A stretch of DNA of 64,000 nucleotides from Kiritimatiellia bacterium. Lineage in GTDB: Bacteria; Verrucomicrobiota; Kiritimatiellia; CAIVKH01. A model generated the notes under the pieces. It made no database searches, had not been told where the DNA came from, and saw nothing but the letters and a program-made list of their open reading frames with translations. The stretch is taken from assembly GCA_023953695.1 (NCBI GenBank), contig JAMLJG010000004.1, positions 1 through 64,000 on the forward strand. Direction: 5' to 3'. Both the position numbers and the translations under genes were made by a program. How positions within the stretch are numbered: the first letter of the stretch is position 1; every line of letters starts with the position of its first letter. Below, piece after piece: positions 42,053 to 63,864 of this stretch.

Positions 42053-42228
42053 CGCGATCATCTCCCGGTGTTTGTCAGCGAAGGGCGAACATGCCGCGCG
42101 AGCAGGCCTCTGTGCAATCTTCTTTCTCGCGGGCTCTCGGATTATTTTGAAGCGTTGTTTGCGGGTTGTGTATAGTTGCCGCCCTGCGCGCGACGCCGAC
42201 GGAGCGGAGCGCTCGGGGAGGAGAGAAA

Positions 42229-47463: not shown

Positions 47464-48419
47464 GGCGTGATGTGTGTCCCTGTTTTCCCTGCCACGGCTT
47501 CCTCAAGCAAATGAGGTTGCGTGATGATGACTCTTTTCCCGCCCGCTTGAAGATAGCGAACGGCCGCTTGAATCTTGGGCAGCATGCTTCCGGCAGCAAA
47601 ATGGCCTTCGGCCGTATAGCGGAGCGCGTCGGCCAGCGTGATGTCGCGAAGCGCCTCCTGGTTCGGCTTCCCGTAACGGATGTACACGCAATCTACGGCG
47701 GTGGAAATGATCAAGAGATCGGCTTTCAGGTGCCCGGCAAGCAAGCTGGATGCGGCATCCTTGTCAATCACGGCTGCGCAACCGCGAAGACGCCCCGCGC
47801 GATCGCGCGTCACGGGGATTCCCCCGCCGCCGACGGCGATGACAATGATGTCCTGCTCCAGCAGCGCTTTGATGATGGGCTCTTCAATGATCTCCATGGG
47901 CTCGGGAGACGGCACGACGCGCCGCCACCCGCGGCCGGCATCTTCCCGAACGGTCCATCCGTCTTTCACCTCGTGTGCGCGGGCCTGTTCTTCGGTATAG
48001 AATGGGCCGATCGGTTTTGTGGGCTTCTGGAATGCCGGATCTTTGGCGCTCACCACGGATTGCGTCACCACGGTGACCGCTTCCTTCTGAATCCCCATCC
48101 GCCGCATTTCGTTCCGCAGCGTTTGTTGAATTTGATAGCCGATCGCGCCCTGCGTGTCGGCCACGCAACTTTCGAGCGGAACGGAGTGCAGCTTATCCTT
48201 TGCCATTTCCGAACGCAGCAGAATGAAGCCCACTTGCGGGCCATTGCCGTGCGTGACGACGACGCGGTAGCCATCGCGAATGAGCGCCGAGATGTGGCGG
48301 CTGGTTTCGCCCGCCGCGCGATATTGATCCGGAACCGACATGTGGCTGCTGTCGCTGATGAGCGAATTGCCGCCGATCGCGATTACCGCCAGTCTAGTGC
48401 TTTGTCGGTTCTTGCGCAT
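47460..48419 (-). CDS. arcC: Carbamate kinase
   Basis: 319 residues, standard length. Amino-acid-kinase fold: IGGNSLISDSSHMSVPDQYR, VVTHGNGPQVGFILLRSEMA, ACRLGVVPSPEPMEI-type lid and ILIISTAVDCVYIRYGKP. It transfers phosphate from carbamoyl phosphate to ADP. Sits 3 bp after ygeW, so carbamoyl phosphate released by YgeW can be turned into ATP. Confidence 0.95.
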   Translation of the reverse strand: MRKNRQSTRLAVIAIGGNSLISDSSHMSVPDQYRAAGETSRHISALIRDGYRVVVTHGNGPQVGFILLRSEMAKDKLHSVPLESCVADTQGAIGYQIQQTLRNEMRRMGIQKEAVTVVTQSVVSAKDPAFQKPTKPIGPFYTEEQARAHEVKDGWTVREDAGRGWRRVVPSPEPMEIIEEPIIKALLEQDIIVIAVGGGGIPVTRDRAGRLRGCAAVIDKDAASSLLAGHLKADLLIISTAVDCVYIRYGKPNQEALRDITLADALRYTAEGHFAAGSMLPKIQAAVRYLQAGGKRVIITQPHLLEEAVAGKTGTHITP

Positions 48420-48422
48420 TCA

Positions 48423-49613
48423 TCAGATATCCACACGCGGTTTGTTCTTCTTGAGCAATCCTTCCAACACGCCGATGGGATCCTTCGCGCGATTCGCGAG
48501 AATCATCGCCGCGATGATGAAGGGTTTGCGGCCCGCTTCGTGGTAGGTGCGGATGCGATATTTCTCAAAGACATCCGCCTCCACTTCGCCTTGTTTGCAG
48601 GAAACGCCGGTGATATCGGCAGGCAGGCAATGCATGTAGAGTGCGTCGCCACCTTTCGTGCGCTTCATCTGCGACGCGGTGCACTCCCAATTCGTGTGCG
48701 ACGCGTTCTCGGCCAGACACGCTTTCTCCAATTCCTTCAGCCCTTCGCGATCATTCTGTTGGAGCAGCGTCGTCCGCTTTTGCATCACCGAATAGGACGC
48801 CCATGACTTCGGATACACAATGTCGGCATCTTCAAATGCCTCTTCCATGGAATGCGTGTGCGTGAACGAGCCGCCGGACTCTTGGGCCTGGCGTTCGGCG
48901 CGCTGCACGACCTCGGGAATCAAGTCGTAGCCCTTGGGATGCGCGAGCGCCACCTTCATGCCAAATCGGCTCATCAGCCCAATGATGCCTTGCGGCACCG
49001 AGAGCGGTTTCCCATAGCTTGGCGAATAGGCCCAGGTCATCGCGATCTTCTTGCCGCGCAGATTGCCGAGCGATCCGAACGTCTTTTCGAGCCAGAGCAG
49101 ATCGGCCATGGACTGCGTGGGGTGGTCTATGTCGCACTGTAGATTCACGATTCCGGGGCGTTGCGCCAACACGCCATCGCCGAAGCTCTCGTCCAGCGCT
49201 GCTGCCACTTCGAGCATGTAGGTGTGTCCCGCGCCGAGGAACATGTCGTCGCGAATGCCGATGACCTCGGTCAGGAATGAAATCATCGTCGCCGTTTCGC
49301 GGACCGTCTCGCCGTGGGCGATTTGCGATTTGCCCTCGTCGAGGTCCTGCACCGCCAGGCCCAACAGGTTCGACGCAGAGGCGAAAGAGAATCGCGTGCG
49401 CGTGGAATTATCGCGGAAATTGGAGACGGCGAGGCCGGATTTGAAGACGCGCGCGGAGATGCCTTGTTGGTGCATCAGGCGCAGCGTCTCGGCGAGACCC
49501 AACACAAGTTTGAGCTGATCGAGCGAATGGTCCCACGTCAACAGGAAGTCTTTTCCGAAGAGCGAGGCGGGGCGTTCGCGCAAGGAGGCGAGGATCGAAG
49601 TTGGCGTACTCAT
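48423..49613 (-). CDS. ygeW: Knotted carbamoyltransferase YgeW
   Basis: 396 residues, the family length. Carbamoyl-phosphate loop STRTRFSFASA, FLGAGHTYMLEVAAALDES and MHCLPADITG are the knotted-carbamoyltransferase signatures; the length and insertion set YgeW apart from ornithine and aspartate transcarbamylases. Within purine-catabolic clusters it is proposed to phosphorolyse a ureido-propionate to carbamoyl phosphate. First gene of the leftward operon (ygeW-arcC-PLP). Confidence 0.93.
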   Translation of the reverse strand: MSTPTSILASLRERPASLFGKDFLLTWDHSLDQLKLVLGLAETLRLMHQQGISARVFKSGLAVSNFRDNSTRTRFSFASASNLLGLAVQDLDEGKSQIAHGETVRETATMISFLTEVIGIRDDMFLGAGHTYMLEVAAALDESFGDGVLAQRPGIVNLQCDIDHPTQSMADLLWLEKTFGSLGNLRGKKIAMTWAYSPSYGKPLSVPQGIIGLMSRFGMKVALAHPKGYDLIPEVVQRAERQAQESGGSFTHTHSMEEAFEDADIVYPKSWASYSVMQKRTTLLQQNDREGLKELEKACLAENASHTNWECTASQMKRTKGGDALYMHCLPADITGVSCKQGEVEADVFEKYRIRTYHEAGRKPFIIAAMILANRAKDPIGVLEGLLKKNKPRVDI

Positions 49614-49651
49614 GTGCTGCCTTTCTGCATGGCGTTGAGTCCATGCGTGTC

Positions 49652-49668
49652 GCGCGTGTCACACGCGC
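49652..49668. promoter_or_regulatory. Inverted repeat GCGCGTG-TCA-CACGCGC upstream of ygeW
   Basis: Perfect 7-bp arms around TCA, 39 bp upstream of the ygeW start, in the divergent intergenic region. Could be an operator for a local regulator or a leader hairpin. Confidence 0.45.
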
Positions 49669-49723
49669 TTCATTTCTGTGGCGCGAGTATCCCGCTCCGC
49701 GTGCGGCGATTCAATCGGGGATA

Positions 49724-49743
49724 CCCTGATGAAATCATCAGGG
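49724..49743. promoter_or_regulatory. Perfect 20-bp palindrome CCCTGATGAAATCATCAGGG
   Basis: A perfect 9+9 dyad with a 2-bp AA centre in the 206-bp divergent gap between ygeW and sdaA, roughly 77 bp from the sdaA start and 111 bp from the ygeW start. Sole large symmetric site between the two purine operons, so a plausible shared operator. Confidence 0.55.
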
Positions 49744-49819
49744 CTTGCCCTGCGGCATTCTGCTGGGCACGGCGCGCATCGGAACTAGACTCGGGATGAG
49801 ACGCTTCTGCTGAGGAATA

Positions 49820-51139
49820 ATGGCGCAGGTTGAGTCCATATTCGAAACGTTCAAGATCGGCGCGGGTCCGTCGAGTTCGCATAGCATCGGGCCCCAGCGC
49901 GCGGCCCGCCTTTTTCTCGATCGCCAACGCGCGCGGCCCGCGCGCGTCTCCGTCGTGTTGCAGGGCAGTTTGGCGGAGACCGGGCGCGGTCACCTCACGG
50001 ATCGAACCCTCATTGCCGCGCTCTATCCCATCGCGTGCGAGATTGTGTGGGATGCGGAGACACAATCCTTGCCGCATCCCAACACGATGATTTGGCGCGC
50101 GTTCGATTCCGCGGGACATCCGGTGGATGAGTGGAGAGTGATGAGCGTCGGTGGGGGCTCGCTTCGCGATGAGCGCGGGCCGATCAACGCCGAGCCGATC
50201 GTCTGTTATCCCGCGGCGAACATCACCGAAGCCATGGCGTGGTGCGAGCGCGAACACGCACACTTCTGGCAGTTTGTGGAGCTGCACGAAGTGGATCTCT
50301 GGCGGCGTCTGGACGTTGTGTGGATGGCGATGCGCGACAGTGTGGAGCGCGGGCTGAAAAATACCGAGTCCCTGCTGCCCGGCTCGTTGAAGCTCCAGCG
50401 CCGCGCCCGCACGACATGGCTGCGCGCGCAGAATCTGAAGCGACCGCAGCGCGATCTCGCGCTGCTTTCCGCCTTTGCGCTGGCTGTGGCGGAGGAGAAC
50501 GCCAGCGCGGGGACCATTGTCACCGCGCCCTCGTGCGGCGCGGCGGGCGTGGTGTCTGCGCTTCTCTATTACTTTGAAACTGTCAAGGAGATGCCGCGCG
50601 AAGATGTGCTCCACGCCCTCGCCACGGCGGGTCTGTTCGGTTCCGTGATTCGAGCCAATGCCTCCGTATCGGGCGCAGAAGTGGGATGCCAGGGCGAGAT
50701 TGGCTCCGCCTGCTCGATGGCATCGGCGGCGGGCTCGCAGTTGCTCGGCGGCAGTGTCCGGCAAGTCGAGTATGCGGCGGAAATTGGGATGGAGCATCAC
50801 CTGGGCCTCACCTGCGATCCGGTGGAAGGCTACGTGCAGATTCCCTGCATTGAGCGAAACATGGCCGCGTGTCTTCGCGCATTTGAGTGCGCCTCGTTCT
50901 CTCTACTCACCGATGGGCGTCACTTGGTGAGTTTCGATGAGGTGATTGAGGTGATGTATCGCACGGGGCTGGACCTGCAGAGCGAATACCGGGAGACCGC
51001 GCGCGGCGGACTCGCAGCGCTGTGGAGTCGGCGCTTGGCGCAGCCAACCGCGGCGCCGCCGCCGGCCGTGAGGGAAGACTGCGGAAGGGACGCTCGCGAC
51101 GAATGCGCGGGGCAGAAAGAGGAATGCCATGAGCGATAG
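49820..51139 (+). CDS. sdaA: L-serine ammonia-lyase (iron-sulfur dependent, SdaA type)
   Basis: 439 residues with both fused domains: N-terminal ESIFETFKIGAGPSSSHSIG, and a C-terminal catalytic domain with the Fe-S cysteines in TAPSCGAAGVVSALLYY, AEVGCQGEIGSACSMASA and LTCDPVEGYVQIPC. Converts serine to pyruvate and ammonia. Its 3' end overlaps ygfK by 11 bp, so it is translationally coupled to purine catabolism; that suggests a C3 amino acid from purine breakdown is deaminated. The last 40 residues are a low-complexity tail beyond the usual end. Confidence 0.92.
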   Translation: MAQVESIFETFKIGAGPSSSHSIGPQRAARLFLDRQRARPARVSVVLQGSLAETGRGHLTDRTLIAALYPIACEIVWDAETQSLPHPNTMIWRAFDSAGHPVDEWRVMSVGGGSLRDERGPINAEPIVCYPAANITEAMAWCEREHAHFWQFVELHEVDLWRRLDVVWMAMRDSVERGLKNTESLLPGSLKLQRRARTTWLRAQNLKRPQRDLALLSAFALAVAEENASAGTIVTAPSCGAAGVVSALLYYFETVKEMPREDVLHALATAGLFGSVIRANASVSGAEVGCQGEIGSACSMASAAGSQLLGGSVRQVEYAAEIGMEHHLGLTCDPVEGYVQIPCIERNMAACLRAFECASFSLLTDGRHLVSFDEVIEVMYRTGLDLQSEYRETARGGLAALWSRRLAQPTAAPPPAVREDCGRDARDECAGQKEECHER

Positions 51140-54100
51140 AATGTTTCCACTGCAACTGGATAGAACGGCGCGCTGGATTCGCGACGAGCTCCGCGCGAAC
51201 GACTCGATCTATGGGATTTCACGCGACCTGTTCTTCGTTCCCAGCGAAGGGGATCCATTCCGCACATCGGTTTTCGAGCAGGCGCTCGGAACGCCTATCG
51301 GCGTTGCCGCCGGTCCGCATACCCAAATGACGCAGAACATTCTCGCGGCGTGGCTGTGCGGTGCGCGTTTCATTGAGCTGAAGACGGTTCAGACCCTCGA
51401 CGAGTTGACGGTCTCGAAACCCTGCATAGACATGGAAGATGCGGGCTACAATGTGGAGTGGTCGCAGGAGCTGCGCATTCACGAATCCATCCAGGAATAT
51501 GTCAACGCGTGGATGTTGATTCACTATTTGCACCGACTGCTGGGATTCAAGGGGCGAGGGCCGGGAACGGTGTTCAACATGAGCGTGGGCTACAACATGG
51601 AGGGCATCCTCAAGCCGAATGTGCAGGGCTTCCTCGACGCCATGGCGAACGCATCGGCGCCGATTGCGCGTGGACGCGAGATGCTCACCTCCATCTTCCC
51701 CGACCTCGGCGATGTCGAGGTCCCGAAGCGGATTTCCGACAATGTCACCCTTTCGACCATGCACGGGTGCCCACCGGGCGAGATTGGCGCTATTAGTCGC
51801 TATTTGCTGGAAGAGCGAAAGCTGCACACCTATGTGAAACTCAACCCCACACTGTTGGGGCCGAAGCATCTGCGCTCCATTCTCAACGATCAGCTGGGGT
51901 TCGAAGACATCGAGGTTCCCGATGCAGCGTTTGAGCACGACATCACCTTCGATAGCGCGGTGGCGTTGATTCGCGAATTGCGCGCGGTGGCTGCGAATCA
52001 GGGCCTGTCTTTCGGCATCAAACTCTCAAACACCTTGGAGGTGATCAATCACCGGGCTGTGTTCGATGGGCGCGAGAAACAGATGTATATGTCCGGCCGC
52101 CCGCTTCACGCCGTGACGATCCACGCCGTGCAGCGATTGCAGGAGGTGTTCGATGGCGAACTGAACATCTCGTTTGCGGGCGGCGCCGATGCATTCAACA
52201 TCGCGGAGCTGATGGCGTGCGGCATGAAGACCGTCACTGTCTGCTCCGACGTCCTCCGCTCGGGGGGATACGGCCGCCTGCCGCAATACCTCGCTCATCT
52301 TCGCGAGGCGATGCAAGCGGCAGGGGCATCGAACCTCGACGACTTCGTACGTGCGAAGGGAGGCGAAGAGGATCGAATCGCCGCCGCGCAGCGCAATGTG
52401 ACGCGCTATGCGGCGGAGACACTCGCCCAGCCGTTCTATCGCGAAGCCACCTATGACCGAGCCGACACCAAATCGCAGCGCCCGCTTGGCCTGTTCGATT
52501 GCATCAAGGCGCCCTGCACAGAAGTCTGCCCCATTGAACAGGGCGTGCCTGAATATATGCGCGCCGTTGCCGCCGGGCAGTTTGAGGAAGCGGCTCTCAT
52601 TGTGGGTCGCGACAACACCATGCCGTCCGTGTTGGGACGCGCCTGTCATCATCCCTGCCAGATGCGATGTGTGCGGACGCATCTCGATGAGCCGCTCGCC
52701 ATTCGCGAAATCAAGCGCTTCATTCTCGATCAGGCGCGCGCGAGCTGGGTGACGGGCCCGAAGCGTGGGCAATCCGTTGCCATCATCGGCGCGGGTCCGT
52801 GCGGACTGGCCACCGCAGATTTTCTTTCGCGCGCGGGCTATCGCGTGACCCTCTTCGATGCGCACGATCGAGAAGGCGGAATGGTCGCGCTCTCCATTCC
52901 CGGCTATCGCTCCTCCGACAACGCGCTCACGCGCGACCTCTCCTTCCTCCGCGAGCGCGGCGTGAACGTTCGATATGGTCAACGCGCGGGTGTTGATTTT
53001 CAACTGGACGATCTGCGCCGCGAAGGTTTCCGGGCCATTGTTGTTGCCATTGGAGCACAGCGCGCCGGAAAGCTGGGCGTGGAAGGAGAAGACGTTGCGG
53101 GCGTTTGGGATTCCCTCTCCTTCCTGCGCGAGGCGCGAGAGGGACGGCATCCGAAGATTGGCCGCCGCGTGGGCGTGGTGGGTGGCGGCGATGTGGCGAT
53201 GGATTGCGCGCGCACGGCGTGGCGACTTGGCGCTGATGAGGTGTGTGTGATTTATCGGCGCACGCGCAAGGAAATGCCGGCGCAGCGCGATGAATTGCAG
53301 GGCTTGCTGGACGAGAACATCCCGATCCATGAGCTGCTGGCGCCGGAGCGGGTTTTATCGGAGGGTGGAGCGCTGACCGGCTTGGTGTGCTCGGTGATGG
53401 AGCTGGGCGATCCCGACGCGAGCGGGCGCCGCCGCCCGCAGCCCATTCCCGGAAAAGTCGAGACCCTTCCGCTCGACACGCTGATTGTGGCGATCAGCCA
53501 GGCGGGCGATTTCGCATGGCTCGAAAAGGCGGGCGTTCGGCTGAATCGGCAGCGCTTTGTGGACGTGAACCCCACCACGCTGGAGACGGCCGTGCCCGGC
53601 GTGTATGCCGGTGGCGACGCGATCGGGAGCGGTCCGGCGACCATCGTGAAGGCGCTGGGCGATGGCAAACGCATCGCGCGCGCCATTCGCGAACACTTCG
53701 AAGGGCCACTCCGCACTCGTCAAGCGGCGGCGCAGGAGCGCGTGGATCGGGCTCTCTTGCAGAAGCATCGCGCGACGCGCGCGCATGCCGCCGTGCCTAC
53801 GGAGCGCGAACTCACCCAGCGCCGCAACTTCGAGGAAGTGATGTTCACCCTCGACACGGAGACCGCAAAGAAGGAGGCCGCGCGCTGCCTGGATTGCGAC
53901 AAGCTGTGCAGCTATTGCGTGGGCGTGTGTCCCAACCTCGCGCTTTTCACCTATGAGCACACCCCCCTGGAGCGAGCGCTGCCGGTAGGGCGGATTGCAG
54001 ATGGCGTTTGGCATGCGACGGGCAGCGAAAAGATATCCATTTCGCAGCGCTATCAAGTCGCGGTATTCGCCGATCTCTGCAATGAATGCGGCAACTGTGT

Positions 54101-54461
54101 CACGTTCTGTCCATCGGCCGGTCGGCCCTATCGAGACAAGCCCCGAATCTATTCGCGTCGCGATGAGTGGCAGCGCGAGTCGGACAACGCCTTTTTGTTG
54201 CAGAAGCGACACGATGGTTGCGTCATTGAGGCGCGCATCGCGGGAACCACGCACCGTTTGGAGATGAACGGAACGCTGATCTATTCCTCTCCGATGGTGC
54301 GGGCCGAATGGTCGCGCCACTGGGATTTGATCTCCGTCGTAGCGGCGGCGGAGGCCGTTTCGGCAGAGCGCGTGTCGCTGCGGCCCGCCCTGGAGATGGC
54401 TGCGCTGCTTTTGGGCATGATCGAGTCTGTTCCGTATATTCCGCTATGGGAGACTGCCTGA
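51129..54461 (+). CDS. ygfK: Putative selenate reductase subunit YgfK
   Basis: 1,110 residues (Escherichia coli protein is about 1,030). TIM-barrel dihydropyrimidine/dihydroorotate-dehydrogenase-like part (to about 420), a 4Fe-4S block with CIKAPCTEVCP and CHHPCQMRCV, a GltD-like NAD(P)/FAD domain (AIIGAGPCGLATADFLSRAG; VGVVGGGDVAMDCAR; YAGGDAIGSGPATIVKAL) and C-terminal ferredoxin cysteines (CLDCDKLCSYCVGVCP; CNECGNCVTFCP). Despite the name it is now tied to anaerobic purine breakdown, where it likely reduces a purine-derived ring. Followed by ssnA after 1 bp. Confidence 0.93.
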   Translation: MSDRMFPLQLDRTARWIRDELRANDSIYGISRDLFFVPSEGDPFRTSVFEQALGTPIGVAAGPHTQMTQNILAAWLCGARFIELKTVQTLDELTVSKPCIDMEDAGYNVEWSQELRIHESIQEYVNAWMLIHYLHRLLGFKGRGPGTVFNMSVGYNMEGILKPNVQGFLDAMANASAPIARGREMLTSIFPDLGDVEVPKRISDNVTLSTMHGCPPGEIGAISRYLLEERKLHTYVKLNPTLLGPKHLRSILNDQLGFEDIEVPDAAFEHDITFDSAVALIRELRAVAANQGLSFGIKLSNTLEVINHRAVFDGREKQMYMSGRPLHAVTIHAVQRLQEVFDGELNISFAGGADAFNIAELMACGMKTVTVCSDVLRSGGYGRLPQYLAHLREAMQAAGASNLDDFVRAKGGEEDRIAAAQRNVTRYAAETLAQPFYREATYDRADTKSQRPLGLFDCIKAPCTEVCPIEQGVPEYMRAVAAGQFEEAALIVGRDNTMPSVLGRACHHPCQMRCVRTHLDEPLAIREIKRFILDQARASWVTGPKRGQSVAIIGAGPCGLATADFLSRAGYRVTLFDAHDREGGMVALSIPGYRSSDNALTRDLSFLRERGVNVRYGQRAGVDFQLDDLRREGFRAIVVAIGAQRAGKLGVEGEDVAGVWDSLSFLREAREGRHPKIGRRVGVVGGGDVAMDCARTAWRLGADEVCVIYRRTRKEMPAQRDELQGLLDENIPIHELLAPERVLSEGGALTGLVCSVMELGDPDASGRRRPQPIPGKVETLPLDTLIVAISQAGDFAWLEKAGVRLNRQRFVDVNPTTLETAVPGVYAGGDAIGSGPATIVKALGDGKRIARAIREHFEGPLRTRQAAAQERVDRALLQKHRATRAHAAVPTERELTQRRNFEEVMFTLDTETAKKEAARCLDCDKLCSYCVGVCPNLALFTYEHTPLERALPVGRIADGVWHATGSEKISISQRYQVAVFADLCNECGNCVTFCPSAGRPYRDKPRIYSRRDEWQRESDNAFLLQKRHDGCVIEARIAGTTHRLEMNGTLIYSSPMVRAEWSRHWDLISVVAAAEAVSAERVSLRPALEMAALLLGMIESVPYIPLWETA

Positions 54462-54462
54462 T

Positions 54463-55779
54463 ATGAACCGTCTACTGATCAAGAATGGGACGCTCGTCAC
54501 CTTGGACGATGCGGGAACGATCATCGAGAATGGGTCTCTCTTGATAGAAGGATCCAAGATCGCGGCGGTTGGCGCGGTGCCGGATGTTCCTGTTGAGCGC
54601 GTGGTGGATGCGGGCGGTGGCGTTGTGATGCCGGGCCTCATCAATGTTCACCATCATTTCTATTCGACGCTGGCGCGCGGCTTTTCAGCGCCGGGTGTGC
54701 CCGCTGCAAACTTCAAAGAGATCCTCGAGCGACTCTGGTGGAAGCTCGACCGCGCGCTCGATGCGGAAGATGTCTATTCCTCCTCCATCATTCCCTGCAT
54801 CGAAGCGATTCGCGCTGGGTGCACCACAATCATTGACCATCACGCTTCGCCGGCCTGCGCCGATGGCAGTCTCGACATCCTCGAACGGGCCTTTCGCGAA
54901 GCGGGGCTCAACGGGTCGCTGTGTTACGAGGTCTCCGATCGCAACGCAGTGGGGGAAGGGATCGAAGAGAATGTGCGCTTTGCGAAAAAGTGCCGACGCG
55001 AGGGCGACACGCAGATTCAGCCGCTCTTCGGCCTCCACGCTTCCATGACGCTGGGGCCAGCGACGTTGGAGCGCTGTGCTGCGGAGGGCAAGGCGCTGGG
55101 AGTTGGGTTCCATGTCCATATTGATGAAGCGGAGTGCGATGCCGAAGAGTCCTTGCGCCAGTTTGGTGCGCTGCCCATTGACCGGTTTCAGCAGGCGGGG
55201 ATTGTCGGGCGCAAGTCGCTTTTTGCGCACGGCATTCATCTCGATGAGCGCGGGCGCAACATCCTGGCCGATTCGGACAGCATGATGGCGACAAACCCGG
55301 AATCCAACGCGAACAACGGACTGAGCGCGACGCCGCTGCTCGAAATCATGCGGACGGGGATCCTGATCGGACTCGGAACGGATGGCATGTCGAATCAGAT
55401 GATCAGCCAAGCGCGAGCGGCCTATCTCGTTCAGCGGGCGACGCGTCGCGATCCGCGAGTCGCATTTGGCGAAGCCTGCGCGATGCTGTTGTCGAACAAT
55501 CGCCGCATCTGCGACCGCGTCTTCCCCGAGAAGCGCGGCCAACTGATGGAGGGCCAGTTGGCTGATATCGCAATATTCGACTATCAGCCGTTCACGCCCA
55601 TGCGCGCGACCAACTTCTACGGGCACCTTCTCTTTGGCCTGGTTCAAGCTCCGGTGACCACGACCATCTGCCGCGGGCGCGTGTTGCTGGAAGGCGGGAA
55701 GATTCCGCATCTCGACGAAGTGGGGCTTCGACGCCAAGCGGTGGAGCGCGCGCGGCGGCTATGGGAGCGAATCCGATGA
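54463..55779 (+). CDS. ssnA: Putative aminohydrolase SsnA
   Basis: 438 residues, family length. Amidohydrolase with metal motif GLINVHHHFYSTLARGF, the GCTTIIDHHASP segment, FHVHIDEAE, FAHGIHLDERG and metal Asp in LGTDGMSNQM. Always seen with ygfK; presumed hydrolase or deaminase of a purine catabolite. Between ygfK (gap 1 bp) and a second amidohydrolase (ATGA overlap). Confidence 0.9.
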   Translation: MNRLLIKNGTLVTLDDAGTIIENGSLLIEGSKIAAVGAVPDVPVERVVDAGGGVVMPGLINVHHHFYSTLARGFSAPGVPAANFKEILERLWWKLDRALDAEDVYSSSIIPCIEAIRAGCTTIIDHHASPACADGSLDILERAFREAGLNGSLCYEVSDRNAVGEGIEENVRFAKKCRREGDTQIQPLFGLHASMTLGPATLERCAAEGKALGVGFHVHIDEAECDAEESLRQFGALPIDRFQQAGIVGRKSLFAHGIHLDERGRNILADSDSMMATNPESNANNGLSATPLLEIMRTGILIGLGTDGMSNQMISQARAAYLVQRATRRDPRVAFGEACAMLLSNNRRICDRVFPEKRGQLMEGQLADIAIFDYQPFTPMRATNFYGHLLFGLVQAPVTTTICRGRVLLEGGKIPHLDEVGLRRQAVERARRLWERIR

Positions 55780-57161
55780 GCCGGATCCTTCTCAAGAATG
55801 TCCACACCCTGGTGTGCATGGAGGGCAACGCGCCACCGAAGCACGGAATGGACGTGTGGATTGAGGGAAACCGCATCGCGGCGATCCACGCGAGTGGGCT
55901 GCGCGCGACGCCCGATTCAGAAACGACGGTGATCGATGCGAGCTGCCACGTCGTCTATCCGGGTTTTGTCAATACGCACCACCATCTGTATCAAACGCTC
56001 ACCCGCAATATCCCGGCTGTGCAGAATGCCAAGTTGTTCGATTGGCTCCTCTATCTCTACGAAGTCTGGCGCGGAATCACGCCCGAGGCGGTGGATGTGA
56101 GCACGCGGGTGGGGGTGGGAGAATTGCTTTTGTCGGGTTGCACCACCACATCTGACCACTTTTATGTATTTCCGCACGGCGTGACGCGCGAGTTGGTGGA
56201 TGTGGAGATTGAGGCCGCCCGGGAGATGGGGATTCGCTTCTATCCCACGCGCGGGAGCATGAGCCGCGGAAAATCGCACGGCGGCCTTCCTCCGGATGAT
56301 GTGGTTCAGCACCATGAAGATATCGTGCGCGACTGCGAGCGTCTGATCGCGAAATACCACAACAGCGCGCCGGATTCGATGTGCCGCATTGCGCTGGCGC
56401 CGTGTTCGCCGTTTTCTGTGACGACAGACTTGCTGCGAGAGACGATTCGCTTTGCGCGCGCGCACGGAGTGATCTGCCACACGCATCTGTGCGAAACGGT
56501 GGACGAGGAGCGCTATTGCCGCGAGGTGCACGGCGTTCGCCCGCTCGACTATATGGAGGAGAATGAGTGGTTGGGCGCGGATGTGTGGTATGCGCACGGT
56601 ATCTATTTCAACGAGAGCGAGATTTGCAGGTTGGCGGCGACGAAGACGGGCATTGCGCACTGCCCGACCTCCAATCTCCGGCTCGGTTCCGGTATCGCGC
56701 CGATCCCGCGCATGTTGGAATCGGGCGTTCCCGTGGGATTGGGCGTGGATGGATCGGCCAGCAACGACAGCTCCAGCCTCAGCCGTGAATTGCAGCAGGC
56801 GCTGCTGGTTCATCGGGTCGGCACGGCGGTGGATTCCATGCCGCCGAACCACGTGTTGCAGATGGCGACGCTCGGCGGGGCGGATATTCTTGCGTGGCCC
56901 GAAATTGGGCGAATCGCGCCCGGCGCTCTGGCGGATGTGGCGATGTTTCGGTTGGATCGAATTGAATATGCCGGGGCCATGACGGACCCGGCGTCGGCCA
57001 TTCTCTTCTGCGGCGCAGGAGCGCGCGCAGATTACACAATTGTGAACGGAGTGATTCGCGTGGCGAAGGGCGAGCTGCTGAGTGTGGACGAGCGGGAGCT
57101 TTTTCATCGCGCGAACGAATTGACCAGCAGCATGTTGAAGAAAGCAGGAGGTTCGCCATGA
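55776..57161 (+). CDS. 8-oxoguanine-deaminase-like amidohydrolase
   Basis: 461 residues from ATG 55776 (ATGA overlap with ssnA). Chlorohydrolase/cytosine-deaminase-like amidohydrolase: GFVNTHHHLYQTLTRNIPAV, CTTTSDHFYVFP, CHTHLCETVDEE, VWYAHGIYFNE and LGVDGSASNDSSSL; these match the 8-oxoguanine deaminase subgroup. It would deaminate 8-oxoguanine or guanine-like purines to urate/xanthine-type compounds feeding the xdh genes that follow (ATGA overlap). An extra gene here compared with the Escherichia coli order. Confidence 0.85.
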   Translation: MSRILLKNVHTLVCMEGNAPPKHGMDVWIEGNRIAAIHASGLRATPDSETTVIDASCHVVYPGFVNTHHHLYQTLTRNIPAVQNAKLFDWLLYLYEVWRGITPEAVDVSTRVGVGELLLSGCTTTSDHFYVFPHGVTRELVDVEIEAAREMGIRFYPTRGSMSRGKSHGGLPPDDVVQHHEDIVRDCERLIAKYHNSAPDSMCRIALAPCSPFSVTTDLLRETIRFARAHGVICHTHLCETVDEERYCREVHGVRPLDYMEENEWLGADVWYAHGIYFNESEICRLAATKTGIAHCPTSNLRLGSGIAPIPRMLESGVPVGLGVDGSASNDSSSLSRELQQALLVHRVGTAVDSMPPNHVLQMATLGGADILAWPEIGRIAPGALADVAMFRLDRIEYAGAMTDPASAILFCGAGARADYTIVNGVIRVAKGELLSVDERELFHRANELTSSMLKKAGGSP

Positions 57162-58003
57162 AATTGATCGCTTATCACCGCCCGGCCGCTCTGGCCGAGG
57201 CGCGCCATCTCCTGCGGGAGTTGGGGGCGGCAGCCATGCCGCTGGCGGGTTGCACCTCGCACTCGTTTGTCAAAGGCGACGAGGAGCGGATTGGTGTGGA
57301 CCTTGCAAAAATTGGATTCGATACGATTGAGCGCGCCGATGGAGGTTTCATCGTGGGCGCCAATGCGCGAGTGGCAGACCTGCAGGCCCACCGCGCGCCG
57401 GGTTGGGTGCTGGATCGCGTCGCGCTTCGGTTTGTCAGCCAGCCGGTTCGCAACATGACGACCCTCGGGGGGAATATCGCGCGGATCTTTCCGTGGAATG
57501 ATTTCCCGGTTGCCCTATTGGCGCTGAATGCAACGGTCACCATAGCAGGCGAGGAGGATCGTCAACTGCCCGCGGATATCTACTTCGATGGACAACCCGC
57601 GCGGCATTTCAAGGCGGGCGACATTCTGATTCGCGTGTTTGTGCCGGACGTCGGCGCGGGCTGCGGCTTTGCCTATCGCAAGGACACCTTGGTGAGCATG
57701 GCCTTCAGCCGACTGACGGCAGCGGTCTGGCTGCAACGCGAAGGGAAAACCATCCGCGATGCGCGCATTGCGCTGGGCGCGGCCGTTCCGCTTCCGCTTC
57801 GCTTGGAGCTGGTCGAAGAGGCGGTGGTCGGAAAGGTCTATTCCGCAGAATTGATCGCAGACGCAATGGAGCGCCAGATCGCGGCGTTGCGGTGGAGAAG
57901 CAGCGATGCGTTCAGCGAGGAATATGTTCAGCAACTAGCGCGGGCGCATGTGCCCGACGCCCTGGAAGAAGCGTTTCGCGCAGCGGGAGGAGGCCGGAAA
58001 TGA
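57158..58003 (+). CDS. Xanthine-dehydrogenase-family FAD-binding subunit (YgfM/XdhB-like)
   Basis: 281 residues. FAD-binding domain of the molybdenum hydroxylases: AGCTSHSFVKGDEERIGVDL, VGANARVADLQAH and RFVSQPVRNMTTLGGNIAR. Accepts electrons from the 2Fe-2S subunit. Overlaps the neighbours on both sides by ATGA. Corresponds to YgfM in Escherichia coli (ygfK-ssnA-ygfM-xdhD). Confidence 0.9.
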   Translation: MKLIAYHRPAALAEARHLLRELGAAAMPLAGCTSHSFVKGDEERIGVDLAKIGFDTIERADGGFIVGANARVADLQAHRAPGWVLDRVALRFVSQPVRNMTTLGGNIARIFPWNDFPVALLALNATVTIAGEEDRQLPADIYFDGQPARHFKAGDILIRVFVPDVGAGCGFAYRKDTLVSMAFSRLTAAVWLQREGKTIRDARIALGAAVPLPLRLELVEEAVVGKVYSAELIADAMERQIAALRWRSSDAFSEEYVQQLARAHVPDALEEAFRAAGGGRK

Positions 58004-58461
58004 ACATCGCATTCACACTCAATGGCAAACCACAGGAACTGACCATCTCGCCCAACGAAAAGCTCACCGAGGCGCTGCGTCGGCTCGGTGTGTATAGCGT
58101 CAAGACGGGTTGCAACGAAGGGGCCTGCGGCTCCTGTGTCGTCAACGTGAACGGGCGCGCGGTCAAGTCGTGTTTGATGTATGCGGCACAGGTGGATGGC
58201 GGATGTGTTGAAACGGTGGAGTTCATTGGCTCGCTCGACAATCCGCACCCCATTCAGAGCGCACTGGTGGAGGAGGGGGCCGTACAGTGCGGATTCTGCA
58301 TGGGCGGGTTGATCATGTCGGCCAAGGCGGTGTTCGACAAGAACCCGTCTCCCACGGATGAGGAGTTGGCGATTCATCTCGATGGCCATCTCTGTCGGTG
58401 CACGGGTTATGAGAAGATCCAATCCGCGTTGAGGAAGGTTTCCTCGGGAGCTGCGTCATGA
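58000..58461 (+). CDS. Xanthine-dehydrogenase-family 2Fe-2S subunit
   Basis: 153 residues. Plant-type ferredoxin part with CNEGACGSC, then the four-helix half with the second cluster CGFCMGG and LCRCTGYEKIQSAL. Electron relay between molybdopterin and FAD subunits. In Escherichia coli XdhD this domain is fused to the molybdopterin part; here it is a separate gene (153 + 774 residues versus about 956 fused). ATGA overlaps at both ends. Confidence 0.92.
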   Translation: MNIAFTLNGKPQELTISPNEKLTEALRRLGVYSVKTGCNEGACGSCVVNVNGRAVKSCLMYAAQVDGGCVETVEFIGSLDNPHPIQSALVEEGAVQCGFCMGGLIMSAKAVFDKNPSPTDEELAIHLDGHLCRCTGYEKIQSALRKVSSGAAS

Positions 58462-60782
58462 AAAAGAACTTCAACGTCGTCAATAAATCGGTCCGCAAAA
58501 TTGACTCGCTGTCGCTGATCACCGGCAAGCCGATGTTTGTGGGGGACCTCAAACCCGCGGATGCGCTCGTGGTCAAAATGCTGTGGAGCCCGCATGCGCA
58601 CGCGCGGATTGTTTCCCTCGATGCCTCGGCTGCGGAGAAGATGCCGGGCGTGCACGCGGTGTTGCACCACGGAAATGTTCCGCGCGTTTTGCACACAACG
58701 GCGGGGCAGGGTTTTCCTGAGCCCTCGCCCTACGACTCGGTCATGTTTGATAACAAAGTGCGGCATGTGGGCGATCGCGTTGCCGCTGTGGCCGCGGAGA
58801 CGGCAGAGCAGGCGGCGGCGGCGCTGAAAGCCATCAAGGTGGTGTATGAGGAGCTTCCGGCCGTGATGTCCATAGAGGATGCGATGAAGCCTGGCGCTCC
58901 CATCATTCACGATGAGCCGGATGCTCACGCCGCGATTCCGGTGCCCTATGAGCCGGAGCGCAATCTCGCCGCGCGCGTCGCGATGGACGTGGGCGATCTC
59001 GAAGCGGGGCTGAAGGCATCGGATGTTGTGCTGGATCGCGAATACTACACGGACTATGCGCAGCATTGCCCGATCGAGCCTCACGTGGCGATGGCGCAAA
59101 TCGCCGTAGATGGACGCATCGTGATAACGACCAGCACACAGGTGCCGTTTCACGTGCGGCGGATCGTTGCGCAGGTGCTGCAGATTCCGGTCCGTCGAAT
59201 TCGTGTGATCAAGCCCCGCATCGGAGGTGGGTTCGGCGCGAAACAGGAAGTCCTGCTCGAATCGGTCGTTGCGCTGTTTGCGCTGCGAACGGGCCGCGCC
59301 GTGTATTGGAAATACACGCGCGAGGAGGAGTTTGTCTCCAGCCGCACGCGGCATCCGGAGAAGATGCGGGTGCGCGTGGGCGCGGGCAAGGATGGGAAGA
59401 TTCGCGCGATCGGGTTGGATTGCATTTCCAATAGCGGCGCGTATGGCGCGCATGCGCTGACCGTGGTGTGCAACAGCGGAAGCAAGATTCTGCCGCTCTA
59501 CCGCAGCGACATCATCCATTTTGTCGGTGAATCGGTTTATACCAATCTGCCGGTGGGCGGCGCCTACCGCGGGTATGGAGCGACGCAATCGAGCTTCGCG
59601 ATCGATTGCCACATGGACGAATTGGCCGAGCAGCTCGGGATGGACTCGCTGGAGTTCCGGAGAATCAACACCGTGCGCTCCGGCGAAACCTCTCCGGTCT
59701 TTCGCGCGTTGGGCGAGGGCAAGGCCGGGGTCGAGCAATCGGTCGGAAGCTGCGAGCTGGAAAGGTGCATGAAACTCGGTGCGAAAGAAATCGGGTGGAA
59801 GAGACGTGGCCGCTGGCAAGACAAGACGGGGCGCTTCCGCCGGGGGATTGGCATGGCGGCGCTGATGCAGGGATCGAGCATCCCGGAAATTGATATGGGT
59901 GCGGTGTCGCTGAAGATCAACGACGACGGATCGTTCAACATGCTCATGGGCGCGACGGACATCGGCACGGGAAGTGACACCGTGTTGGCTCAGATTGCAG
60001 CGGAGACGCTCGGCTGCGACCTGGACAAATTGATCGTCTATTCGTCCGACACGGACATGACGCCGTTTGACGTCGGCGCATACGCATCCAGCACCACCTA
60101 CCTGACCGGCATGGCGGTGAAGAACACGGCCGAGAAAGTGGTCAAACAAATGAAGGACGTGGCCGCGGCCATGATGGAGTGCAGCGCAAAGGATATATCC
60201 CTCTCCGACAACAAGGCCCACGGTCCCGGAGGAAGGTCGGTGACCTTCTCCGAGATCGCGCTGCGCGCGCTCTATGGAACGGATCAGTTCCAGATCGGCG
60301 CGATTTCATCCGCGATTTCGCACAAATCGCCATCGCCCTTCTCTGCGCACTTTGCAGAGGTCGAGGTGGACACGCAGACGGGGAAGGTGAGCGTGTTGCG
60401 CTACGTCGCCGCTGTGGATTGCGGGACAGCGATCAATCCGAAGCTCTCGGAAGGGCAGACGGAGGGCGGCGTGCTCAATGGAATCAGCTATGCGCTGACA
60501 GAGGAATATCGCTTCAGTCCGAAGGGGCGCATGCTGAATTCGTCGTTCCTGCACTATAAGATCATGACCATGCGCGATAAGCCGGAGATCAAGACGATCT
60601 TGGTGCCGAGCTATGAGAAGACGGGCCCATACGGCGCCAAGAGCGTTTCGGAGATTTGCATCAACGGCCCGATGCCCAGCATTGCCAATGCGATCTACAA
60701 CGCGGTTGGGGTTCGCATGCGGTCATCGCCCTTCACGCCGGAGCGCGTCTGGCGCGCGATGAAAGAGCAGGGTCGGATCTAG
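58458..60782 (+). CDS. Xanthine-dehydrogenase-family molybdopterin-binding subunit
   Basis: 774 residues. Aldehyde oxidase/xanthine dehydrogenase large subunit: GRPMFVGDLKPADAL-type start, IGGGFGAKQEVLLES (MoCo loop), GGAYRGYGATQSSFAIDCHM, and the catalytic base Glu732 in GAKSVSEICINGP. Oxidises purine C-H positions (xanthine/hypoxanthine). Members of this branch in yge-type clusters are often labile-selenium-dependent hydroxylases. It ends 5 bp from the convergent MoaD-like gene. Confidence 0.92.
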   Translation: MKKNFNVVNKSVRKIDSLSLITGKPMFVGDLKPADALVVKMLWSPHAHARIVSLDASAAEKMPGVHAVLHHGNVPRVLHTTAGQGFPEPSPYDSVMFDNKVRHVGDRVAAVAAETAEQAAAALKAIKVVYEELPAVMSIEDAMKPGAPIIHDEPDAHAAIPVPYEPERNLAARVAMDVGDLEAGLKASDVVLDREYYTDYAQHCPIEPHVAMAQIAVDGRIVITTSTQVPFHVRRIVAQVLQIPVRRIRVIKPRIGGGFGAKQEVLLESVVALFALRTGRAVYWKYTREEEFVSSRTRHPEKMRVRVGAGKDGKIRAIGLDCISNSGAYGAHALTVVCNSGSKILPLYRSDIIHFVGESVYTNLPVGGAYRGYGATQSSFAIDCHMDELAEQLGMDSLEFRRINTVRSGETSPVFRALGEGKAGVEQSVGSCELERCMKLGAKEIGWKRRGRWQDKTGRFRRGIGMAALMQGSSIPEIDMGAVSLKINDDGSFNMLMGATDIGTGSDTVLAQIAAETLGCDLDKLIVYSSDTDMTPFDVGAYASSTTYLTGMAVKNTAEKVVKQMKDVAAAMMECSAKDISLSDNKAHGPGGRSVTFSEIALRALYGTDQFQIGAISSAISHKSPSPFSAHFAEVEVDTQTGKVSVLRYVAAVDCGTAINPKLSEGQTEGGVLNGISYALTEEYRFSPKGRMLNSSFLHYKIMTMRDKPEIKTILVPSYEKTGPYGAKSVSEICINGPMPSIANAIYNAVGVRMRSSPFTPERVWRAMKEQGRI

Positions 60783-60787
60783 GCGCG

Positions 60788-61021
60788 CTATCCGCCGCCG
60801 ATAGGCATGGAGAGAAATACGCGATCGCCTTCGCGCAGGGTATAGCTGCGCGAAGCCGAGGCGTTGTTGACGAATGGCGAAATCACGCCGCGGTGCCGCT
60901 CGGGGACGCCGAGCTGTTCCAGCAAGTCTGCGAGCGAGGTTCCTTCGGCGACTTGAATCGTCGAGCCCGTGGCCGGACCGTTGATTTTCAGCATCGCCAC
61001 ATATTCCAGCACAATGTCCAT
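60788..61021 (-). CDS. MoaD/ThiS-like sulfur-carrier protein
   Basis: 77 residues from MDIVLEYVAMLKING; the longer start lacks similarity. Beta-grasp with LADLLEQLGVPERHRGV and VNNASASRSYTLREGDRVFL, ending SMPIGGG: three C-terminal glycines, instead of the usual two. Such proteins carry a C-terminal thiocarboxylate. It runs against the xdh operon; a role in molybdopterin or selenium/sulfur modification of the hydroxylase is suggested by location. Its likely activator is the MoeB-rhodanese protein at 42229. Confidence 0.8.
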   Translation of the reverse strand: MDIVLEYVAMLKINGPATGSTIQVAEGTSLADLLEQLGVPERHRGVISPFVNNASASRSYTLREGDRVFLSMPIGGG

Positions 61022-61183
61022 GCCGCAAGGGTAGGCGAATTGTGCGGGCCTGGCGAACGCAATGTTGTGCGGGCCCATCGGGGAATGTCCGATAGCCTAA
61101 TCAGGGCTTCCCGCGCGGTTAATGCGTTGCCTCCGCCTCCGTTCCTGACGACCCTTAACGCAACCATCAAATGGGTGTTCACG

Positions 61184-62671
61184 ATGAAAAAGGCGAGAAC
61201 GAGGGAAGCGGAAGTATTGCAGCGGGCCATCGCGCGAGCGCGCGAAAGAAAGGTCATTCTGCCGACGATTGAGCAGCAGAAAAATCCGGCCAGCATCCCG
61301 CCCCTGATCAAGCGCAAGCTCGCCTCGTTGGGGTTGTGGGATGTGAATCCGCTCAATCTCTTTCGCATCACGTGGAAGAACGAGCCGAAGCGGCACGGCG
61401 GCGGATTTGGCGATGGGACCTGGCTTGAGTTTCCATCGGCGTTGACGGGAGTCAGCGCGCGCATCATCGGGCTTGCGGGGAAGTGGTTCCCGACCGGTGC
61501 GCACAAGGTGGGCGCGGCGTATGGATGCCTCGTTCCTCGGTTGGTGTCGGGCCAATTCGACCCGACGCAGCAGAAGGCGGTGTGGCCGTCCACGGGCAAT
61601 TACTGCCGCGGCGGCGCGTATGACTGCGCGCTGTTGGGGTGTCCCGCCATTGCGATTCTGCCGGAGGGGATGAGTCGCGAGCGCTTTGATTGGCTGCGCG
61701 AGATCGGGACAGACGAGATCATCGCGACACCGGGCACGGAATCGAATGTGAAGGAGATCTACGATAAGTGCTGGGAGTTGAGGCGCACGCGCGGCGATGG
61801 GATTGTGATTTTCAATCAGTTTGAAGAGTTTGGAAATTCGATCTGGCACTACCACGTCACCGGTTCGTGCATGGACGAAATCTACGAAAAGCACATTCGC
61901 ACGCCTGCCTCGCGACTGGCGGGTTTCATCAGCGCGACGGGCTCGGCGGGCACGATTGCGGCCGGCGATTATCTGAGGGCGAAGCATTCGCACGTGCGCG
62001 TTGTGGCGGCCGAGGCGTTGCAGTGTCCGACGTTGTATCAGTTCGGCTTTGGCGCGCACCGGATCGAGGGCATTGGCGACAAGCACATTCCCTGGGTGCA
62101 CAACGTGCGCAACACAGACGCTGTGGCGGCGATTGACGACGAAGCCGTTATGCAGGTGATGCGTCTCTTCAATGAGCCGAACGGGAAGAAGCGTCTCGCG
62201 GCGTGCGGTGTTTCGGAAGAGACGATTGAGGCGCTGAACATGGCGGGCATTTCTTCCATTTGCAACCTGATTGCCGCCATGAAGACGGCGGCCTATTACG
62301 ACATGTCGTCGGACGATGTGCTGTTCTTCCCCATGACCGACTCGATGGAGATGTATGGGTCGCGCCTTGCGGAAATGAGGGCGGAGCACGGTGCCTTCAG
62401 CGCGCGCCATGCGGATGCGGTCAAGTCGCGCTATCTCGACGGCAACACGATCGCTCACTTTCGCGAGTTGGGCTATGCGGATCGCAAGGCGCTGCACCAA
62501 TTCAAATACTTCACCTGGATTGAGCAGCAGGGCAAGACCTCGGACGAGCTTCGTCAGTTGTGGGACGAATCGTTCTGGCAGGACATTTTCTCCTCCGCGC
62601 GGGTTGCGGAGTGGGATCGGCAAATCCACGCATTCAATGAGGCGACGGGAGTGTTGAAAGAGCTGAGGTAA
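61184..62671 (+). CDS. Fold-type-II PLP enzyme in the YgeX position
   Basis: 495 residues from ATG 61184 (a longer frame back to 60656 overlaps xdh and is rejected). PLP lysine Lys108 in GAHKVGAAYGCL, cofactor/substrate loop WPSTGNYCRGGAYDCALL, FISATGSAGTIAAGDYL. Related to a little-studied family annotated as PLP-dependent subunit-beta-like proteins, not to the 398-residue DpaL/YgeX. Located where ygeX normally sits, before ygeY (1-bp overlap). Likely a diaminopropionate- or amino-acid ammonia-lyase, by context only. Confidence 0.8.
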   Translation: MKKARTREAEVLQRAIARARERKVILPTIEQQKNPASIPPLIKRKLASLGLWDVNPLNLFRITWKNEPKRHGGGFGDGTWLEFPSALTGVSARIIGLAGKWFPTGAHKVGAAYGCLVPRLVSGQFDPTQQKAVWPSTGNYCRGGAYDCALLGCPAIAILPEGMSRERFDWLREIGTDEIIATPGTESNVKEIYDKCWELRRTRGDGIVIFNQFEEFGNSIWHYHVTGSCMDEIYEKHIRTPASRLAGFISATGSAGTIAAGDYLRAKHSHVRVVAAEALQCPTLYQFGFGAHRIEGIGDKHIPWVHNVRNTDAVAAIDDEAVMQVMRLFNEPNGKKRLAACGVSEETIEALNMAGISSICNLIAAMKTAAYYDMSSDDVLFFPMTDSMEMYGSRLAEMRAEHGAFSARHADAVKSRYLDGNTIAHFRELGYADRKALHQFKYFTWIEQQGKTSDELRQLWDESFWQDIFSSARVAEWDRQIHAFNEATGVLKELR

Positions 62672-63864
62672 TGATCATGAATATACTAGCTGAAGCGCGC
62701 GCGCTGGAGCCCAAGCTCCTGCAGTTTATGAAGGACATCATTTCGATCAAGTCCTTGAGCAGTGAAGAGGGGCCGGTGGCCAAGCGTATTGAAGCCGAGA
62801 TGAAGGCGCTCGGCTACGATCGCGTTCGAGTGGACAAGATGGGCAATGTTATCGGGCGGATGGGGAAGGGTCCGGTGCATATTGCTATTGATGGGCACAT
62901 TGACACGGTGGATGTGGGCGATCGCAACGCGTGGAAGACCGACCCATTCAAGCCGATCGTCAAGAACGGCGTGTTGTACGGGCGGGGCACCAGCGATATG
63001 AAGGGCGGCGTGGCTGCGGCGGTCTATGCCGGGGCGCTGCTGAAAAAGATCGGCCTGCCGAAGAATGTATCCCTCTTCGTGACGGGAACGGTGCAGGAAG
63101 AGGACTGCGATGGTTTGTGCTGGCAGTATCTGGTGCGCGAGGAGAAATTGCGTCCGGCTGTCGTCGTTATCACCGAGCCGACGAGTCTGCGAATCTATCG
63201 CGGCCACCGCGGGCGGATGGAAATCGAGGTGGAGACCACGGGCGTTTCCTGCCATGGGTCCGCGCCGGAGCGCGGGGTGAACGCGATCTACAAAATGGCG
63301 AACATCATTAAGGACATTGAGCAGCTCAACGAGCGTCTGAAGCCGCGCAAGCCGCTGGGGAAGGGCACGGTGACCATCAGCCACATTCGCTCGCGCTCGC
63401 CGAGTCTATGCGCGGTGGCCGATGGCTGCGTCATTCATCTCGATCGCCGTTTGACGGTCGGAGAAACCGAGAAGGTTGCCGTGAATCAGATCAAGGCGCT
63501 CCCCTCGGTGAAGAAGGCAAGAGCTGTTGTTCGCGTCTTGGAATATGACACCCCCAGCTACACTGGATTGCGCTATCCGACGAAGAAGTATTTCCCCACG
63601 TGGGAGATGCCGGAGAGCACGCGGGAGGTGAAGAAGGCGCGGGAGGCGTACAAAGTTGTCTTCCAGGATGAGCCGGTTGTGGGCCACTGGGTGTTCAGCA
63701 CCAACGGGATTGCCACGGCGGGCATGCACGATATTCCCACGATCGGCTTTGGGCCGGGTCATGAACACATGGCCCATGCGCCGAATGAGTGTGTGGAAAT
63801 CGAGCATTTGACCCGCGCTTGTGCGTTCTATGCGGGTTTCGTGCGTGCCTACAGCGAGAAGTAG
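62671..63864 (+). CDS. ygeY: YgeY family selenium-metabolism-linked M20 hydrolase
   Basis: 397 residues; start overlaps the PLP gene stop by one base (TAATG), with a later alternative at 62677. M20/ArgE/DapE fold: metal motif AIDGHIDTVDVGDRNAW, GRGTSDMKGGVAAAV, GTVQEEDCDGLCWQYL with the catalytic Glu pair, EPTSLRIYRGHRGRMEIEV, and C-terminal GFGPGHEHMAHAPNECVEIE. In yge clusters it is proposed to open or trim a ureido intermediate. Last gene of the rightward run; hairpin follows. Confidence 0.93.
   Translation: MIMNILAEARALEPKLLQFMKDIISIKSLSSEEGPVAKRIEAEMKALGYDRVRVDKMGNVIGRMGKGPVHIAIDGHIDTVDVGDRNAWKTDPFKPIVKNGVLYGRGTSDMKGGVAAAVYAGALLKKIGLPKNVSLFVTGTVQEEDCDGLCWQYLVREEKLRPAVVVITEPTSLRIYRGHRGRMEIEVETTGVSCHGSAPERGVNAIYKMANIIKDIEQLNERLKPRKPLGKGTVTISHIRSRSPSLCAVADGCVIHLDRRLTVGETEKVAVNQIKALPSVKKARAVVRVLEYDTPSYTGLRYPTKKYFPTWEMPESTREVKKAREAYKVVFQDEPVVGHWVFSTNGIATAGMHDIPTIGFGPGHEHMAHAPNECVEIEHLTRACAFYAGFVRAYSEK

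Follow-up and report, generated by a model that had tools for sequence, protein, structure and literature searches.

The PLP enzyme encoded at 61184-62671 of the window (the whole stretch of DNA that was analysed, 64,000 nucleotides in length) belongs to a coherent, very conserved and hitherto undescribed family that is tied to the reductive uric-acid pathway. What is new here is the make-up of the last step, in a pathway that is itself known. YgeX, a DpaL enzyme, converts 2,3-diaminopropionate (DAP) into pyruvate in the end reaction of this pathway (PMC12507026). A literature search found neither the PLP family nor a threonine-synthase-like (TS-like) family, represented by a second PLP enzyme of the window, described in the urate pathway. 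It is quite possible, if short of probable, that the two enzymes jointly do the work of DpaL at the end of the pathway, with the substrate, the reaction and the division of labour that we infer below. Through the two families, the range of the pathway now includes Kiritimatiellae, Planctomycetota, Woeseiaceae-type Gammaproteobacteria and Riflebacteria.

The PLP gene and the urate cluster

YgfK, SsnA, YgeW and YgeY of the window all exceeded their NCBIfam cut-offs, and thus the markers of a reductive uric-acid cluster are present. The cluster extends over 46201-63864. Its minus-strand part (46201-49613) consists of ygeW, arcC and the TS-like gene, and the gene order on the plus strand is sda, ygfK, ssnA, an 8-oxoguanine-deaminase-type gene, xdhB, xdhC, xdhA, the PLP gene and ygeY. 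The features are as follows.

46201-47463, minus strand: TS-like PALP enzyme, 420 aa; 4-base overlap with arcC; possible partner, or else rival, in the YgeX step
47460-48419, minus strand: carbamate kinase (arcC/yqeA type), 50% identity to E. coli YqeA
48423-49613, minus strand: ygeW, knotted carbamoyltransferase (TIGR03316, 620.2 bits, cut-off 500)
49820-51139, plus strand: sda, Fe-S L-serine ammonia-lyase (TIGR00720, 374.6 bits); 11-bp overlap with ygfK
51129-54461, plus strand: ygfK, reductase (TIGR03315, 883 bits, cut-off 835)
54463-55779, plus strand: ssnA, aminohydrolase (TIGR03314, 460.2 bits, cut-off 455.5)
55761-57161, plus strand: 8-oxoguanine deaminase-type amidohydrolase (PRK08203, 602.9 bits, cut-off 532)
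57158-58003, plus strand: xdhB/ygfM-like FAD subunit
57988-58461, plus strand: xdhC-like 2Fe-2S subunit, 43% identity to E. coli XdhC; start uncertain, near 57988
58458-60782, plus strand: xdhA/xdhD-like Mo-binding subunit, 41% identity to E. coli XdhD
60788-61021, minus strand: ThiS/MoaD-like protein, 77 aa, ending in GGG (Pfam ThiS, 30 bits, cut-off 22.5)
61184-62671, plus strand: PLP enzyme, 495 aa; CysK/CBS-like core at residues ~85-390; Lys108 as the PLP lysine
62671-63864, plus strand: ygeY, M20-family hydrolase for ureido cleavage (TIGR03526, 541.8 bits, cut-off 321.5)

A HyuA hydantoinase had no match in the window beyond the weak similarity of SsnA, and hyuA was found in 2 of 80 related loci (the best 80 of at least 582). 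The 8-oxoguanine-deaminase-type gene occurs in some clusters of this pathway variant. In sda, a partial beta domain match was seen.

The ThiS/MoaD-like gene separates xdhA from the PLP gene and runs antisense to both, which gives the PLP gene and ygeY the look of a separate unit. A promoter scan of 60700-62750 gave no signal above chance. The ThiS/MoaD-like gene keeps the same position in two relatives (L131 and L137). A ThiF-rhodanese gene was found at 42166-43404, and Mo cofactor or sulfur transfer are candidate roles for the ThiS/MoaD-like protein.

The reading frame of the PLP gene contains no internal stops, and its ATG start matches that of its homologues. Its TAA stop (62669-62671) shares one base with the ATG of ygeY (62671), forming TAATG; an alternative in-frame ygeY start is the ATG at 62677. 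The initial annotation, which described a 495-residue fold type II enzyme with a one-base overlap with ygeY, was therefore accurate with regard to the gene. It is also right in placing the gene in the ygeX slot, immediately before ygeY, given the order ygeW-ygeX-ygeY in E. coli K-12. In an alignment of 78 homologues, 122 positions were invariant, including the catalytic Lys108, and the PLP gene is therefore real and under selection; an S-T-G-N-x-C-R-G-G loop and Ser357 also belong to this invariant set. Frameshifts appear to split the gene in two long-contig relatives, L137 (G052) and L138 (G068). In L137, ssnA, ygfK and xdhA are likewise split, which suggests assembly error rather than decay.

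PALP (PF00291) was the sole Pfam domain of the PLP enzyme. Extensions of ~85 aa at the N-terminus and ~100 aa at the C-terminus flank the CysK/CBS-like core, and a Pfam search with the C-terminal extension matched no family. The NCBIfam models for DpaL gave 15.4, 12.1 and 10.9 bits (cut-offs 276, 274 and 532, respectively); because these scores are far under the cut-offs and at noise level, the enzyme is not a DpaL. The top NCBIfam model was cysK (TIGR01139), with 91.7 bits and a cut-off of 351. In a phylogenetic tree, the PLP family was placed on a very long branch beside CysK/CysM (support 0.97), separate from DpaL and from threonine-synthase-like proteins. Comparison of a profile of 47 homologues by hhalign gave 97.7% against CysK and 62% against DpaL. 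An AlphaFold2 model of the enzyme (pLDDT 88.7, pTM 0.91) had O-acetylserine sulfhydrylases as its predicted nearest folds in the PDB (TM up to 0.87 by target). Judged from sequence comparison, the PLP family arose from the CysK/CBS branch within the fold-type-II PLP enzymes. The view of the initial annotation that the family differs from DpaL is thus borne out by the DpaL model scores (11-15 bits versus 274-532) and by the clade next to CysK/CysM, and the predicted fold is consistent with it.

Within the active site, Lys108 aligned with Lys77 of DpaL and with the lysine of CysK, and the CysK residues Gln212 and Ser357 were retained. Thr137, which is invariant in the family, occupies the position of DpaL Asp120, an Asp in all 12 DpaLs compared; the TS-like enzyme also has Thr in place of this residue. 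We take Asp120 to be the second base of the two-base mechanism of DpaL. If so, the presence of Thr137 predicts that the PLP enzyme would act on one isomer only.

Since CysK and CBS were the top family matches, the protein might be a standard cysteine synthase or cystathionine synthase whose presence in the cluster is due to chance. We regard this as highly improbable: scores were far under the curated cut-offs, a genuine CysK (450 bits) is encoded elsewhere in the window, at 39616-40575, identity to CysK was 20-24% on a long separate branch, and the PLP family tracks the urate pathway and not sulfur genes.

Distribution of the PLP family and of DpaL

The PLP family is widespread in genomes, with at least 582 stretches confirmed. 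Among the best 80 of these loci, 55 had at least one of ssnA, ygfK, ygeW or ygeY within the fetched stretch, 39 had the TS-like gene and none had ygeX; neither a core urate gene nor the TS-like gene was nearby in 18. A link to the urate pathway was detected in Verrucomicrobiota/Kiritimatiellae, Gammaproteobacteria, Planctomycetota, Elusimicrobiota, Riflebacteria and Myxococcota. Consistent association with unrelated pathways, which the initial annotation had named as evidence against its idea, was not what the neighbourhood survey revealed; the family was linked to urate genes across phyla.

Co-occurrence at the genome level was similarly close. The sample of the window's class comprised 58 relatives, of which 19 were carriers of the PLP family and 39 were non-carriers. 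SsnA was present in all 19 carriers and absent from 37 of the 39 non-carriers (p 2e-13, shared ancestry ignored). In addition, ygeW and ygeY were each found in 16 of the 19 carriers and in no non-carrier. Among 295 genomes of Elusimicrobiota, 68 contained SsnA, 73 contained the PLP family and 61 contained both (p 1e-42, shared ancestry ignored); half of the 12 family-only genomes (6/12) had an ssnA-like gene in the operon of the PLP gene, under the cut-off used. SsnA was also detected in 48 of 51 carrier genomes from other phyla. SsnA is rare in Gammaproteobacteria (2/274), and the survey of this group is therefore uninformative on exclusion.

Neither the window's genome nor 46 of the 51 carrier genomes across phyla had a DpaL over the NCBIfam cut-off. 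Because of this absence and because the PLP family is tied to the pathway, replacement of DpaL by the PLP enzyme is plausible. Within the window's class, DpaL was absent from 14 of the 19 carriers and present in 5; in Elusimicrobiota, it was found in 2 of 295 genomes, one of them a carrier, and was missing from 72 of the 73 carriers. Carriers that also hold DpaL include G002, G008, G014, G043 and G601, with a urate context in G002, G008 and G601. DpaL-positive carriers have kept the PLP enzyme, implying that it is not simply redundant with DpaL. In the elusimicrobial genome G601, the gene order is DpaL-xdhC-xdhA-ssnA, and sister genomes have TS-like/PLP-xdhC-xdhA-ssnA (XdhA 65-72% identical), suggesting that DpaL and the TS-like/PLP pair are interchangeable in position. 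G601 retains both, with its own TS-like/PLP pair at another locus.

The TS-like enzyme and the end of the pathway

The TS-like PALP gene (46201-47463) lies ~14 kb from the PLP gene, and its product also carries PF00291. This gene was missing from the initial annotation. It adjoins arcC in Kiritimatiellae, Gammaproteobacteria and Myxococcota, and the PLP gene in Planctomycetota and Elusimicrobiota. The protein passed the NCBIfam thrC model (192 bits, cut-off 167), ammonia-lyase families also scored well on it, and databases probably list it as a threonine synthase. Neither thrA nor thrB turned up in the surroundings of those copies that were inspected. In most TS-like copies, the NPxRLEGQKT motif of a solved threonine synthase, whose arginine presumably binds phosphate, corresponds to NP(F/Y)TREGKKT or NPYLVEGKKT. 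When E. coli YgeX was used as a query, the TS-like gene was the only match in the window at E 1e-4 (25%, E 5e-7).

Twelve carrier genomes without a local TS-like gene were checked and had copies elsewhere, 5 of the 12 in an arcC/ygeW/ssnA context, including DpaL-positive G014; in DpaL-positive G073 and G043 the copies were outside this context. Identity was 54-58% for the TS-like genes of DpaL-positive G008, G014 and G073, and G043 had a weaker match of 41%. At a few loci, e.g., L070 and L079, a compact cluster is present without a local TS-like gene, and in the genomes concerned only more distant copies (42-44%) were detected elsewhere. Mutual exclusion between the TS-like gene and DpaL was clean in ygeW neighbourhoods only and was broken by TS-like copies in DpaL-positive genomes. 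As the PLP enzyme occurs in such genomes too, neither enzyme is cleanly mutually exclusive with DpaL.

One explanation of these data is that diaminopropionate ammonia-lyase activity rests with the PLP enzyme alone, which would replace YgeX one for one as a non-orthologous enzyme, and that the TS-like enzyme works elsewhere, e.g., in threonine synthesis. The position of the PLP gene directly before ygeY, as for ygeX in E. coli, the near-perfect co-occurrence with SsnA, the absence of DpaL from most carriers, the aminoacrylate route of CysK-type chemistry and the thrC score of the TS-like protein all agree with it. However, across phyla the TS-like gene belongs to the arcC/ygeW operon or to the PLP operon, the checked copies had neither thrA nor thrB nearby, and the PLP enzyme is kept in carriers that also have DpaL. 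We consider this explanation unlikely. The replacement proposed in the initial annotation thus stood with regard to the distinct family, the urate linkage and the missing DpaL of most carriers; as sole replacer, the PLP enzyme was weakened by the 5 of 19 class carriers that keep DpaL and by the TS-like enzyme as an equally good candidate.

The roles might also be reversed, with the TS-like enzyme as the DAP ammonia-lyase and the PLP enzyme in another conserved step, e.g., on albizziin, or in a beta-replacement making serine or cysteine. That YgeX as a query matched the TS-like gene only, that the TS-like sequences have no NPxRLEGQKT arginine, that ammonia-lyase families scored well and that sda is located beside urate genes in several relatives would fit such a reversal, but some compact clusters (L070 and L079) have no local TS-like gene and only the 42-44% copies elsewhere, and we find the reversal rather doubtful.

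Two PALP enzymes occur with a pathway in which the two-isomer DpaL is usually missing, and we therefore favour a shared role of the PLP and TS-like enzymes. The PLP enzyme would be a dedicated urate-pathway enzyme at the C3 end, acting after YgeW and YgeY free amino groups. At Lys108, a 2,3-diaminopropionate-type substrate, or albizziin, its 3-ureido precursor, would most likely be bound as an external aldimine; the alpha proton would be removed, the beta nitrogen eliminated and aminoacrylate released, which would yield pyruvate and ammonia. The job of the single two-base DpaL would probably be split, the PLP enzyme and the TS-like enzyme each acting on a different isomer or substrate. More tentatively, a large variant of the urate pathway that spans phyla may end in a two-enzyme PLP module, one CysK-derived and one ThrC-derived, between whose members the task of the two-base DpaL is divided by isomer or by substrate.

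In the window's lineage, the module may even release serine, which the Fe-S serine ammonia-lyase of the operon would then convert to pyruvate. Such a route is conceivable because sda overlaps ygfK and adjoins urate genes in several relatives; it lies near ygeW or ygeY in G052, G055, G056, G057, G067 and G079. Its location beside urate genes in the window and in these relatives may indicate that serine is an intermediate. Two questions have been named as open (PMC12990295), namely in which order ureido cleavage takes place and which stereochemistry the intermediates have; the PLP and TS-like families offer a direct handle on both.

Comparison with known systems

The PLP enzyme shares with YgeX/DpaL (TIGR03528, TIGR01747) the fold-type-II PALP architecture, the slot before ygeY, the pathway, the aligned catalytic Lys and a G-N-x-x-R-G motif. 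It differs in its low identity (~17%), its separate clade nearer CysK, Thr137 for Asp120 and a length greater by ~100 residues. By sequence and predicted fold, CysK/O-acetylserine sulfhydrylase and cystathionine beta-synthase are closest to it. The PLP Lys, TGN loop, QF, GT/GS-GT phosphate loop and the Ser near the PLP ring nitrogen of CysK all aligned, whereas identity is 20-24%, N- and C-terminal extensions are present, the genomic role is another one, and a true CysK is encoded separately. OrtB (2-amino-4-oxopentanoate thiolase beta, NF040741) is also a long PALP protein, similar in size to the PLP enzyme. As a candidate, OrtB/AKP thiolase was rejected: NF040741 matched the CysK of the window and not the PLP enzyme, even at E 10.

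In a published survey of SsnA neighbourhoods, any PF00291 protein was coloured as YgeX (PMC12507026). As both PALP proteins described here carry PF00291, many clusters, including most of those in Elusimicrobiota, would wrongly be counted as YgeX-containing. The urate cluster of E. coli and C. difficile (PMC12507026) has XDH, YgfK, SsnA, YgeW, carbamate kinase and YgeY in common with the window. In contrast to that cluster, the window's genome is without YgeX and the window without HyuA, and a pair of CysK-like and TS-like PLP enzymes is present instead.
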